64,000 nt of DNA from Rubrivivax sp. SCN 71-131 (GTDB lineage Bacteria > Pseudomonadota > Gammaproteobacteria > Burkholderiales > Burkholderiaceae_C). Shown here one piece after another: positions 39,808-46,687 of this stretch. The stretch lies in the NCBI GenBank assembly GCA_001724995.1, contig MEFD01000016.1, positions 62,001 through 126,000 on the forward strand, in the 5' to 3' direction. Under the pieces are notes generated by a model. It was not told the origin of the DNA. It ran no database searches and saw only the letters and a program-made list of their open reading frames with translations. Made by a program: the position numbers and the translations under genes. Within the stretch, counting starts at the first letter, position 1. Each line of letters starts with the position of its first letter.

Positions 39808-39884
39808 GCGGCTGTAGCTCAGTTGGATAGAGTACTTGGCTACGAACCAAGGGGTCGTGGGTTCGAATCCTGCCAGCCGCGCCA
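39808..39884 (+). tRNA. tRNA-Arg (anticodon ACG), CCA encoded
   Basis: Cloverleaf: acceptor GCGGCTG/CAGCCGC, D arm GCTCAGTTGGATAGAGTA, anticodon loop with ACG at 39842-39844, T arm GTGGGTTCGAATCCTGC. Confidence 0.96.
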
Positions 39885-39925
39885 ACAAAATCAACGGGTC
39901 AGCTCTCACGAAAGAGCTGGCCCGT
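39839..39925 (+). repeat. Direct repeat, left copy (attL-like), 3' part of tRNA-Arg plus terminator stem
   Basis: 87 bp identical to 42230-42316 except one A/G difference. Confidence 0.9.
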
Positions 39926-39931
39926 TTTTTC
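39893..39931 (+). terminator. tRNA-Arg rho-independent terminator
   Basis: AACGGGTCAGCTCTCACGAAAGAGCTGGCCCGTTTTTT. Confidence 0.85.
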
Positions 39932-39946
39932 GTTTCAGAGCTCGGG

Positions 39947-39968
39947 AGGTCCACCCAGGGGTCCACCG
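39947..39968 (+). repeat. Left copy of 22-bp GGTCCACCCAGGGGTCCACCG element (possible integrase arm-type site)
   Basis: AGGTCCACCCAGGGGTCCACCG; near-identical copy at 42091-42112. Confidence 0.65.
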
Positions 39969-40038
39969 CAACGTGGCCATCGGCGCCTCGCCATCCCGCG
40001 TGGCCCTGGATCGGGCAGGGTAGGAGAGATCAAGAACA

Positions 40039-40389
40039 ATGATTGCCGACCCCATGCAGGGCATCGAGCAGTTCGAGAGCGAACTGTGGAGGATGGCCGA
40101 CAACCTGCGCGCCAACTCGAACCTCGCCTCGAACGAGTACTTCATGCCCATCCCCGGGCTAATCTTCCTGCGTCAGGCCACCAACCGATACCACCAGGCG
40201 CTGGTCGCCATCGAGGCCGACAAGGCTGCCGGCAAGATGCCCGACCGCCCGCTGGTCGAAGCCGACTTCACGCGCCGCCGCGCGCTGATGCTTCCCAAGG
40301 GCGCGCACTACGAGGAACTGATGGCTCTGGAAAAGGGCGCTGACCTGGGTGCCGCCGTCACGGCCGCTGCGACCTGCCTTGGGAAGTAG
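40039..40389 (+). pseudogene. Truncated type I restriction-modification methyltransferase subunit (HsdM N-terminal fragment)
   Basis: IEQFESELWRMADNLRANSNLASNEYFMPIPGLIFLRQATNRY ... RRRALMLP; stops before any SAM-binding motif. Confidence 0.75.
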
Positions 40390-40501: not shown

Positions 40502-41626
40502 CTACACCCGCACGCGCGACATCAGCGGCTCGAAGCGATAGACCGCGGAACGTCGGCCTGAAGCCTCGCTCACCGTCTGCAACAGGCCTTCCTGCAGCAG
40601 CACACGTGTGAAGCGCGCAGCCGTTTGCGACGGGATGCCTGCTTTGCTCGTGAATCGGCTGTTGCTGAACACCGGGTAGGTGAAGAGGTAGTCCAGAGCG
40701 GCCACAGCGAACTTCGATGACAACAGTTCGATGAAGCGCGGCTTCATCTCGTCATAGAAGTCGCTGATGCTCTGTGCCACGTCGAGGTTACGGACGGCCT
40801 GCTGCGCGACTGCCGCCAGGAAGAACTCGCACCAGCCGTCCCAGTCATCGTTGGCCGACACTTCCCTGAGGCGGTCGAGATACTCGTCCTTGCGGTCCTC
40901 GAAGTAGCGGCTGATGTAGAAGTGCGGGGCGCTGATGGCGCGGCCTTGCCAGAGCATCAGAGTGATCAGCATCCGGCCGACGCGGCCGTTGCCGTCCTCG
41001 AACGGATGAAGTGATTCGAACTCCGCATGGGCCAGCGCGGTACGCAACAACACGGGTTTGGCATCGTCGCCGGCCAGCTCGAACAGCGCCTCCATGCCGC
41101 TGGCCAGGTGCTCCGGTGCGATGGGCACGAAGCTCACCTTGCGGCTGCCGCGCTCGCCGATGTAGTTCTGCTCGTGCTTGTACTCGCCGGGGGACTTGTT
41201 GGCGCCGCGCCCGAACGACAGCAACTGGCGGTGGATGCTTTTCACGAGCGACTCGGCCAGCGGCCGGCCTTCCTCCATCTGTCGCTGCGCGGTGTTCAGT
41301 GCGCGTCGGTAGAGCGCCGTCTCGATCACGTCCGCCCTGAACTCGGACGCTGCCTTCTCGTCGTCATCGTCGAACTCGGCCTGCAACTGGAGGATCTCGT
41401 CCAGCGTGCTGATGGTGCCCTCCATCCGCGACGAGATCACCGCCTCCTGGCCGCGCAACGGGGAGAGGAAGATCTCGCTGTTGTGCATGCCGCGCAGCAT
41501 CTGGTCGTAGCGAGCCAGTGCGGCCGTGGCTTCCAGCAGCACCGGCATCAGCCGGGCGTAGTCCAGTTGGGGCGGGGGGAACTTGCCCAGGTGGTAGTGG
41601 ACGGCGTTGCTGGTGTCGAGGGTCAT
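40502..41626 (-). CDS. Fic family protein, class II, with C-terminal winged-helix-like region
   Basis: Fic motif HPFEDGNGRVGR; N-terminal inhibitory SSRMEG; C-terminal KAGIPSQTAARFTRVLLQEGLLQTVSEASGRRSAVYRFE resembles a wHTH. Confidence 0.93.
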   Translation of the reverse strand: MTLDTSNAVHYHLGKFPPPQLDYARLMPVLLEATAALARYDQMLRGMHNSEIFLSPLRGQEAVISSRMEGTISTLDEILQLQAEFDDDDEKAASEFRADVIETALYRRALNTAQRQMEEGRPLAESLVKSIHRQLLSFGRGANKSPGEYKHEQNYIGERGSRKVSFVPIAPEHLASGMEALFELAGDDAKPVLLRTALAHAEFESLHPFEDGNGRVGRMLITLMLWQGRAISAPHFYISRYFEDRKDEYLDRLREVSANDDWDGWCEFFLAAVAQQAVRNLDVAQSISDFYDEMKPRFIELLSSKFAVAALDYLFTYPVFSNSRFTSKAGIPSQTAARFTRVLLQEGLLQTVSEASGRRSAVYRFEPLMSRVRV

Positions 41627-41682
41627 CGGTGCTGGCGCTCTCGTTGTAGATGGATTTGTTGTTAACGAACGTGCTGTATTTT

Positions 41683-41831
41683 ATAGACAAACGGCGTTGT
41701 CGTTCATGGATTGATGTCGGACGAGCTTGTCGTCAACCAAGAGCCCGGCATGAACGACAAACGACTTTGTCGTTCTTCGATCAACGACTAGGTGCTTTGT
41801 CGTTCAAGAAGTCGAGTCAAATCAACGACAA
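41683..41831. promoter_or_regulatory. Array of AACGACAA-N6-TTGTCGTT palindromes and half-sites upstream of fic (putative operator)
   Basis: 22-bp palindromes at 41683-41704, 41753-41774, 41783-41804; half-sites at 41727-41734 and 41824-41831. Confidence 0.75.
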
Positions 41832-42075
41832 CCGCGTGCGGGGCAGATTCCCGGTGTCCTCGCCGCCACGGGCTCGGGGGCTGGCCGCTGGTGAGCTGCC
41901 AGCCCGAACCCGAGCATCGGGCGCCGCGCGGCGCGCTGTCGCCTGCGATGAAGCGCACCGCGCCCACGAGCCCGTCGCCGTCGCGCAGCGCGTCGCCGCG
42001 CCAGTCCGCCGGGATGGCTTTCAGCTCCGCCACGGGCCACTTCCGGCCGCGACCCGACTTGGGGCAGCGAGTCAT
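41788..42075 (-). pseudogene. Possible remnant of a tyrosine integrase N-terminus
   Basis: MTRCPKSGRGRKWPVAELKAIPADWRGDALRDGDGLVGAVRF resembles N-termini of tRNA-targeting integrases; position next to the attR-like repeat. Confidence 0.45.
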
Positions 42076-42090
42076 CTCGAACTTCTCCAG

Positions 42091-42112
42091 GGGTCCACCC
42101 AGGGGTCCACCG
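42091..42112 (+). repeat. Right copy of GGTCCACCCAGGGGTCCACCG element
   Basis: GGGTCCACCCAGGGGTCCACCG, 118 bp before the attR-like repeat. Confidence 0.65.
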
Positions 42113-42229
42113 GAAACGGGATCTTGCGGGCAGATCCGGGATGGGTTGAGATGAAGTGCAGAGATTAAGCTATTGATCTACAAAGAAATTTACAGTCCCA
42201 GAAGATCCCGCAAAGTCTCGTTTCAATGC

Positions 42230-42316
42230 GCTACGAACCAAGGGGTCGTGGGTTCGAATCCTGCCAGCCGCGCCAACAAGATCAACGGGTCAGCTCTCAC
42301 GAAAGAGCTGGCCCGT
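42230..42316 (+). repeat. Direct repeat, right copy (attR-like)
   Basis: GCTACGAACCAAGGGGTCGTGGGTTCGAATCCTGCCAGCCGCGCCAACA...GAGCTGGCCCGT repeats the tRNA 3' half. Confidence 0.9.
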
Positions 42317-42350
42317 CTTGCATTGGGGCGTGGAGGCTGCCGCTGGCGCC

Positions 42351-44355: not shown

Positions 44356-45832
44356 TCAGCGCTTCACCGCCAGTGCCTCGGCCACGGTCTGGAACGCCTC
44401 CAGCGCCGCCTGCAGGTTCTCGACGATCTCGGCGGCCATGACATCCGGCGGCGGCAGGCCGTCCACGTCGTCCAGGCTCTCGTCCTCGAGCCAGAAGATG
44501 TCGAGGTTCAGCTTGTCGCGCGCGAGCAGTTCATCGACCGGGAACCGCCTGAAGCGCTCGCTCTCGCGCCGTGCACCGGGCTGGCCCACCCGATAACAGG
44601 CCGCGAAGTCCTGCAGGTCCCCGCGTGGCCAGGGGGTTCTTCTTCAGCGTGAAGTGCTGGTTGGTGCGCAGGTCGTAGATCCACAGCGCCTGCGTGTTCG
44701 GCTTGCCGTCGGCCCGCGGCGGGTGCTTGTCGAAGAACAGCACGTTGGCCTTGACGCCGGGCTTGTAGAAGATGCCGGTGGGCAGGCGCAGCAGGGTGTG
44801 GAAATCGAACTGCTCCAGCAGCCGCCGGCGGATGCCTTCGCCGGCGCTGCCGGCTTCGAACAGCACGTTGTCGGGCAGCACCACGCCGGCGCGGCCGCGG
44901 CTGCCCATCACCGTCATGATGTGCTGCATGAAGTTGAGCTGCTTGTTGCCGGTGGTGAACTTGAAGTCCTCGCGCTCGTAGTCCTCGCGCTCGGTGTCGA
45001 CCTCGCCGTCCTCGCCGATCACCCGGAAGCTGCTCTTCTTGCCGAACGGCGGGTTGGTGAGGATGACGTCGTAGCGCTCGCCGGGGTCGGCGGCGAGCGC
45101 GTCGACGTTGCGGATCGGACTGTCGCCGTTGCCGATGCCGTGCAGGTAGAGGTTCATCGCGCACAGGCGCACCACTTCATCGACGATGTCGTTGCCGCTG
45201 AAGGTCTCTTCGCGCAGCCGCCGCTGCGCGGTGCGGTCGCGCGCCTGGGCGCCGACGTGCTCCTTCATGTACTCGTAGGCCGAGAGCAGAAAGCCCCCGG
45301 TGCCGCAGGCCGGGTCGTGCACGGTCTCGCCGATGCGCGGGTCCAGCGCCGTCACCATCGCCTGGATCAGCGGGCGCGGCGTGAAGTACTGGCCCGCGCC
45401 GCTCTTCACCTCGGCGGCGTTGCGCTCCAGCAGGCCTTCGTAGATGGCGCCCTTCACGTCCACGCCGATGCCGATCCAGGTCTCGGCGTCCATCAGCGAC
45501 ACCACGCGCTTGAGCTTGGCCGGGTCGGTGAGCTTGTTCTGCGCGCCGCGGAAGATGGTGCCGATGAGGCCCTTTTCCCCCGCCAGCGCTTCCAGGGCGT
45601 GGCGGTAATGGATCTCCAGGTCGTCGCCGGCCAGCGGCGCCAGCCGGTCCCAGCGCCAGGCGGCCGGGATGGTGCTGGGCTCGCCCAGCAACTCGGCGCG
45701 CTCCTGGTCCATCTTCAGGAACAGCAGGAAGGTGATCTGCTCGACGTAGTCGCCGTAGCCGATGCCCTGGTCGCGCAGGACGTGGGCGTAGTTCCAGACC
45801 TTGCTGACGAGGGCGGTGTGGTCGGTGCTCAT
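44356..45832 (-). pseudogene. hsdM: Type I DNA methyltransferase HsdM with a 3' frameshift
   Basis: DPACGTGGFLLSAYEYM (motif I), NPPFGKK (NPPF motif); reading frame shifts at the C4 run 44619-44622, C-terminal part continues in ORF 44356..44589. Confidence 0.85.
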
Positions 45833-45940: not shown

Positions 45941-46687
45941 TCAGCCCTGCGGGTCTGTTGCTCGGCGGGCGGCGTACCGTTGCTCCGGGTGCTTTTCCAT
46001 GCTCGGGATGGTGAAGGCCAGCAGCCCCTGCGCCACCATCGGGCTCAACAGCTCCTTCACCAGGTGCTTGTGGTCGCGCCGGCCCAGCAGCATCGCCAGC
46101 TCGCGGGCGCTGTGGGGCTTCCAGGCGCAGATGTCGAACACGAGCGCCTGGAGCAGTTCGCGCCCTGGGCGGGTGCCTCGTGCCGGCAGGCGTTGCACCA
46201 AGGCGGCTGGCAGCGGCCCAGGCTTGAGGGTTTGTGCGGCTGCCTGGGGGGTTTGTGGCCCTGCCTGGGGGGTTTGTGCGCCTGCCTGGGGGGTTTGTGG
46301 CTCTGTGCGGGAGGAATCTGCGCCGGCGGCCGGGCCCTCGGGCCTGACGAAGCCTGGCCCCGGCACGTAGTAGGTGCGGCTGCCACTGCCCTTCATGGCC
46401 AGCAGCCCCAGGTCGCGCAGCCGCCGCAGGTGCACCGAGGCGTTGAGCGTGTCCGTGCGATTGATGTTGCGGTAGGCCGCGTTGTCGATGGCGCCCAGCT
46501 CGCGCACGGCCACGAGCGCGCGCGCTTCCTCGTCGGACAGCGGCTCGGCCGTGAGCGCGCGCAGCCAAGCCAGGTCCACCGCACCCAGGAAGTGGTGGAA
46601 CAGGAAGGTGGCCACGAACTGGTCCGGTCGGCGGCTCGATTCGAAGGTGGGTGGCAGCAGGTCGTGCTGCTGCATCAGCTCGCGCAT
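45941..46687 (-). pseudogene. C-terminal fragment of an AlbA_2/Schlafen-domain (RecG-like) ATP-binding protein
   Basis: LSDEEARALVAVRELGAIDNAAYRNINRTDTLNASVHLRRLRDLGLLAMKGSGSRTYYVPGP; no N-terminal AlbA or ATPase portion upstream. Confidence 0.6.
46231..46316. repeat. In-frame 21-bp minisatellite (4 copies, last degenerate) encoding QTPQAGA-like heptapeptides
   Basis: TTTGTGNNNCTGCCTGGGGGG starting at 46231, 46252, 46273, 46294. Confidence 0.9.

Follow-up and report, generated by a model that had tools for sequence, protein, structure and literature searches.

An array of four 22-bp sites precedes a fic gene in the window analysed here, which is the whole 64,000-nucleotide stretch of DNA from Rubrivivax sp. 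SCN 71-131. The sites start at 41683, 41713, 41753, and 41783, giving a spacing of 30/40/30 bp. This geometry is conserved with fic homologues, and the array is bounded at each end by a lone, inward-facing half-site. We consider it likely that the encoded protein, a class II Fic of SoFic-like type, binds the array in the form of dimers via a winged helix at its C-terminus, and that fic is thereby repressed cooperatively.

The array and its conservation with fic

In the direction of fic transcription, the array comprises the outer half-site R0, sites 1, 2, 3, and 4, and the outer half-site L5, in this order. The features concerned are the following.

41824..41831, minus strand, outer half-site R0, TTGTCGTT in the fic direction, in a frame of about 41 bp from site 1
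41783..41804, minus strand, site 1 (distal), AACGACAA-AGCACC-TAGTCGTT in the fic direction
41753..41774, minus strand, site 2, a perfect palindrome, AACGACAA-N6-TTGTCGTT
41713..41734, minus strand, site 3, degenerate, GACGACAA-GCTCGT-CCGACATC in the fic direction, its frame being kept in homologues
41683..41704, minus strand, site 4 (proximal), AACGACAA-CGCCGT-TTGTCTAT in the fic direction, running into the -10-like TATAAAAT
41679..41686, minus strand, -10-like element TATAAAAT, a possible fic promoter judged from the sequence
41656..41663, minus strand, outer half-site L5, AACAACAA in the fic direction and TTGTTGTT forward, in a frame of about 41 bp from site 4
40502..41626, minus strand, fic, 374 amino acids, with Fic_N, a Fic domain, and a predicted C-terminal winged helix

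L5, which is absent from the initial annotation, is the mirror of the half-site at 41824-41831. The palindromes and half-sites listed in the initial annotation were all found when checked on the sequence; the arm at 41727-41734, which had been taken for a lone half-site, is present but belongs to the full degenerate site at 41713-41734. Matches to AACGACAA-N6-TTGTCGTT with at most three mismatches are confined to the array (three in 64 kb, and none in 100 shuffles), and the 3.9-Mb genome exhibits one extra match beyond the array, with three mismatches. A wider regulon of this motif was rejected on account of that single further match. When the window was scanned with eight half-sites stacked at 0/30/70/100, the score was 60 at 41683, and the best place elsewhere outside the array scored 50. 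The arms had also been described as lying on one face of the helix. This is inexact, as a 30/40/30 spacing at 10.5 bp per turn corresponds to about -50, -120, and -170 degrees along the array. The cores of facing half-sites, which are 21 and 31 bp apart, are separated by integer numbers of turns (two and three) at this pitch.

Homologues were collected from named and sampled genomes as well as from plasmids, and each upstream region was searched on its own, letting every one of the three spacings vary from 26 to 44. The optimum found in this way upstream of fic is 30/40/30 exactly in ten loci, comprising the window and homologues with 52-97% identity (L009, L013, L010, L014, L011, L062, L050, L051, and L065). 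In these ten loci, the z of the fixed geometry against shuffles ranges from 7 to 15; it also exceeds 8 upstream of fic in L063 and L064, and L022, at 35% identity, exhibits a 30/40/30/40 array upstream of fic. Kinship inflates the counts among the closest homologues, though their intergenic DNA is strongly diverged. The subfamilies differ in their half-site letters (AACGACAA, ATYRRCAA, GAAGACAA, AGACACAA, GNCGTCAA, and others), and only the CAA-N6-TTG core, at the inner edge, is constant across them.

With regard to the flanking open reading frames (ORFs), an all-against-all comparison revealed neighbours common only to close pairs, the exception being one distantly similar pair of upstream ORFs on two plasmids. 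The array accompanies fic in Beta-, Gamma-, and Alphaproteobacteria with differing neighbours. As no neighbour genes are common, the array is linked to fic. The search of other genomes proposed in the initial annotation thus finds the array with fic homologues, and its conservation is not with an unrelated gene. This bears on the idea that another regulator, either a host factor or a neighbour-encoded protein, binds the array and controls fic. According to the available sections of the paper on CbFic2, a Fic protein with a winged helix-turn-helix (wHTH), DNA binding by SoFic had not been demonstrated experimentally (PMC10628234), which leaves room for such a regulator. We nevertheless regard it as very unlikely, as the array tracks fic amid varied neighbours and in either upstream or downstream position, the half-site letters drift by fic subfamily, and the Rubrivivax genome exhibits no other site apart from the three-mismatch match.

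A geometry-free repeat test was significant upstream of many stand-alone fic genes. These include the distant Fic-wHTH genes of L023, L027, L030, L034, L037, and L038, where the upstream repeats have other motifs (for example, TTAATTAA-like) and other spacings. This suggests that more types of operator array may exist upstream of distant Fic-wHTH genes.

Half-sites and array ends in two layouts

The arrangement of tandem repeats ahead of a toxin gene is reminiscent of type III toxin-antitoxin loci, and each palindrome of the array could form an 8-bp stem. The repeats might then act as RNA, in the form of tandem leader hairpins such as a type III-like RNA antitoxin or an attenuator of the Fic toxin. 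The complementarity of the arms is 4.80 of 8 within a palindrome and 5.02 of 8 between sites (permutation p of about 0.91, also with G-U pairs). As the arms are no better matched within sites than between them, they are to be read as protein half-sites and not as RNA hairpins, and they would act as copies of a protein-binding motif that are independent of one another. Compensated stems, tested as a sign of type III-like antitoxin repeats, were not found (p=0.91). In addition, the unpaired outer half-sites are conserved and most of the array is upstream of the putative -10, so that an RNA function is hardly tenable.

The ends of the arrays are asymmetric. In the upstream arrays, R0 exhibits TTG at its frame (±1) in 8 of 13 cases, while its CAA partner (L0) is found in 0 of 13; L5 exhibits CAA at its frame (±1) in 7 of 9 cases, and its TTG partner (R5) in 1 of 8. 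The two frames correspond to one 40-bp frame upstream and downstream of the four sites. The arrays therefore start and finish with single inward-facing half-sites, which makes a facing TTG...CAA pair the likely unit, with cores 21 bp (30 frame) or 31 bp (40 frame) apart.

The same ends are observed in a second layout. A sister Fic subfamily, whose identity to the window protein is 41-47%, often lies within type I or type III restriction-modification (RM) operons. A 30/40/30 array upstream of fic gives no signal in its 18 loci (z at most 1.4), and a signal appears instead at the stop codon of fic, where z reaches at least 2.8 in 16 of the 18. The array starts no more than about 15 bases from the stop codon in most loci and has the layout R0-30-site-40-site-30-L3. 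R0 exhibits TTG in 15 of 17 arrays and CAA (L0) in 0 of 17; L3 exhibits CAA in 16 of 17 and TTG (R3) in 2 of 17. Positions in this group were those with the top 30/40/30 score; since every one of the eight half-sites adds to that score, the missing L0 and R3 are not an artefact of selection. The boundary rule is common to the upstream and downstream layouts. Judging from the sequences, the array would have moved relative to fic, yet remained adjacent to it.

Commonly, the array lies ahead of a restriction gene. L068 has the order hsdM, hsdS, fic, array, hsdR. The array is followed in L071, L074, L076, and L077 by a gene for a ResIII/type III-like subunit or a type I HsdR; in L069, an ORF intervenes before HsdR, and the next gene in L073 encodes a YhcG/DUF1016 nuclease. 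No recognised restriction gene lies immediately downstream in L070 and L072. The identity of several of the following genes as HsdR or Res was assigned by Pfam. In these sister systems, Fic probably controls the neighbouring restriction gene.

The Fic protein and its candidate operator

The window Fic matches Fic_N (3e-19) and Fic (7e-18) in Pfam. The Fic motif HxFx(D/E)GNGRxxR is present as HPFEDGNGRVGR, and the N-terminal inhibitory motif (S/T)xxxE(G/N) as SSRMEG (class II); columns H207-R218, S66, E69, and G70 are invariant among 42 homologues. The AlphaFold2 model (predicted local distance difference test 93.3) exhibits a confident C-terminal winged helix, in line with the winged-helix-like C-terminus suggested in the initial annotation, and its top structural match in Foldseek is SoFic (3eqx, template modelling score (TM) 0.82). 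The predicted wHTH comprises helices 307-316, 322-329, and 333-345 and strands 349-353 and 362-365, with residues 333-345 as the predicted recognition helix. The PADLOC SoFic profile is matched at 1e-99 (332 bits), and the score for the NCBIfam SoFic equivalog is 125.7 bits, against a cut-off of 550 that is not reached. By these profiles, the protein is a relative of SoFic, not SoFic proper, and this SoFic-like protein is probably an anti-phage toxin. A second Fic homologue, 38% identical, is found in the same genome close to a contig end (L078, G000 contig C11:560-1279). No relatives were found in the viral contigs searched.

The array would be the operator of fic. Fic dimers covering the promoter region would lower fic transcription, so that an AMP-transferase with toxic potential would regulate itself negatively. 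A single dimer would probably bridge two inward-facing half-sites with cores 21 or 31 bp (two or three turns) apart, and the 22-bp palindromes would be the junctions at which adjacent dimers contact one another head to head. Five dimers would fill R0-L1, R1-L2, R2-L3, R3-L4, and R4-L5, resulting in a cooperative, switch-like operator. With site 4 and L5 occupied, the presumed -10 and the start region would be covered. The distances can be compared with those of CccR (YPK_0951) from Yersinia pseudotuberculosis, an experimentally proven Fic-HTH autorepressor whose dimer is arranged back-to-back, with the recognition helices 70 Å apart (PMC9755527). As 21 bp of B-DNA span about 71 Å, one dimer, if the dimers are alike, would reach facing half-sites and not a single palindrome. 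The binding of Fic to the array and its cooperative autoregulation, as proposed in the initial annotation, are thus supported by the linkage to fic, the predicted wHTH, the uniqueness of the array, and the CccR precedent, from which we infer binding and cooperativity.

Each 22-bp palindrome may instead be the full site of one Fic dimer, the outer halves being weak monomer sites, an arrangement that would replace the bridging and not the autoregulation. Within the array, the palindromes stand out most, site 2 is perfect, and ordinary HTH repressors behave in this way. We consider this arrangement rather unlikely. The outer half-sites are inward-facing only, at the frames of the array and without partners, in two array layouts; the 30/40 spacing is strictly kept, which would be needless for independent dimers; and recognition helices 70 Å apart, as in CccR, are too far apart for cores separated by 9 bp. 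The array could also be mainly a DNA sink or an activity switch, in which operator-bound Fic is inactive or altered in its AMP-transferase activity and autoregulation is secondary. This would fit the DNA-binding-induced (de)AMPylation described in the available sections on CbFic2 (PMC10628234). As toxicity and regulation are separable in CccR (PMC9755527), it seems improbable.

Several points weigh against cooperative autorepression by bridging dimers. The initial annotation correctly noted that the proximal palindrome abuts the -10-like TATAAAAT, but nothing passed a simple sigma-70 consensus scan of the putative fic promoter, and for this reason the promoter is graded as plausible only. The 31-bp pairs would need about 105 Å, versus 70 Å in CccR, and would require flexibility or bending. 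The 70 Å figure itself may not transfer, since the back-to-back CccR dimer is unlike that of SoFic (3eqx). Specificity for the array cannot be assumed, as CbFic2 bound random DNA with nanomolar affinity according to the available sections of that study (PMC10628234). The upstream signal is weak or displaced in L016, L017, and L046, which are 54-60% identical to the window protein, and covariation between the recognition helix and the half-site letters is only anecdotal.

A broader proposal, which we advance tentatively and hold to be slightly less than an even prospect, is that winged-helix Fic proteins use a spacing-coded multi-dimer operator, its dimers bridging facing half-sites two or three turns apart, with one branch autoregulating a stand-alone defence toxin and the sister branch, lodged in type I and type III RM operons, controlling a restriction subunit gene by a similar array just behind fic.

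In the window, fic and the array lie between two copies of a direct repeat.

39839..39928, no strand, left copy, 90 bp, holding the 3' end of tRNA-Arg(acg) (att-like)
42230..42319, no strand, right copy, 98% identical

Besides fic and the array, the 2.4-kb segment between them holds an HsdM_N fragment (40039-40389), and the segment has the appearance of a leftover from a tRNA-integrated element. The motif GGTCCACCCAGGGGTCCACC is repeated at 39941-39971 and 42085-42115, near both copies of the tRNA end, and these repeats are possibly recombinase-related. An integrase remnant, considered for the ORF at 41788-42075 on the minus strand, found no support from Pfam, PHROGs, NCBIfam, or plasmid tblastn and is not claimed. 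Further along, a 248-residue protein (45944-46687, minus strand) lies beside a complete-looking hsdM (44531-45832). It exhibits a weak match (1e-4, below the cut-off) to a Fic-like C-terminal family and no Fic domain, and no 30/40/30 array near it is among the top-scoring places of the window.

Comparison with known systems

Autorepression by a Fic-HTH protein is already known from CccR (PMC9755527). The multi-site geometry and its deployment in RM loci appear undescribed: a literature search that covered few subscription papers revealed no multi-site array with a fixed 30/40 code or with conservation across SoFic-like proteins, no Fic-linked array before restriction genes, and no Fic acting as a restriction controller. 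The conserved array makes the silencing and release of SoFic-type defence toxins directly testable by supplying the DNA, the sites to mutate, and a spacing rule. The like array in the gap between fic and a restriction gene points to a circuit, so far unrecognised, that would control type I and type III restriction, and Fic toxins and restriction would thereby be joined in one regulatory logic.

CccR resembles the system described here in being a class II Fic protein with a C-terminal HTH and in having inverted repeats in its own promoter region. It binds, via its HTH and as an obligatory dimer, to an inverted repeat of 46 bp close to the -35/-10 boxes of its gene (PMC9755527). The site described is a single one, AGATAATCAT-N26-ATGATAATCT, and not a multi-site array, and its half-site letters are different (PMC9755527). 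Its layout of two inverted boxes with 26 bp between them does not occur here, where the facing TTG/CAA cores are separated by 18 or 28 bp. CccR is moreover a secreted effector of a type VI secretion system.

The anti-phage Fic protein SoFic (SO_4266, PDB 3eqx; EcSofic 9VJC, PMC12249575) has the same domain order and fold (TM 0.82) as the window Fic but is only 23% identical to it over the structural alignment. The available sections of the EcSofic paper describe a C-terminal domain twisted outward relative to that of ATP-bound SoFic and do not mention operator arrays (PMC12249575). CbFic2 of Coxiella burnetii (PDB 8cil) likewise belongs to class II and has a DNA-binding winged HTH of the two-stranded type; in contrast, the DNA bound was random, and the sections available report no operator (PMC10628234).

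The C-proteins and RptR (PMC6237814, PMC12255303) are unrelated small proteins without a Fic domain, and RptR uses three 9-bp direct repeats. Nevertheless, they are autoregulators of RM loci with repeated palindromic sites, and their logic is that proposed here for RM-embedded Fic. If the proposal is true, Fic would be an enzyme-bearing counterpart of the restriction controller proteins.
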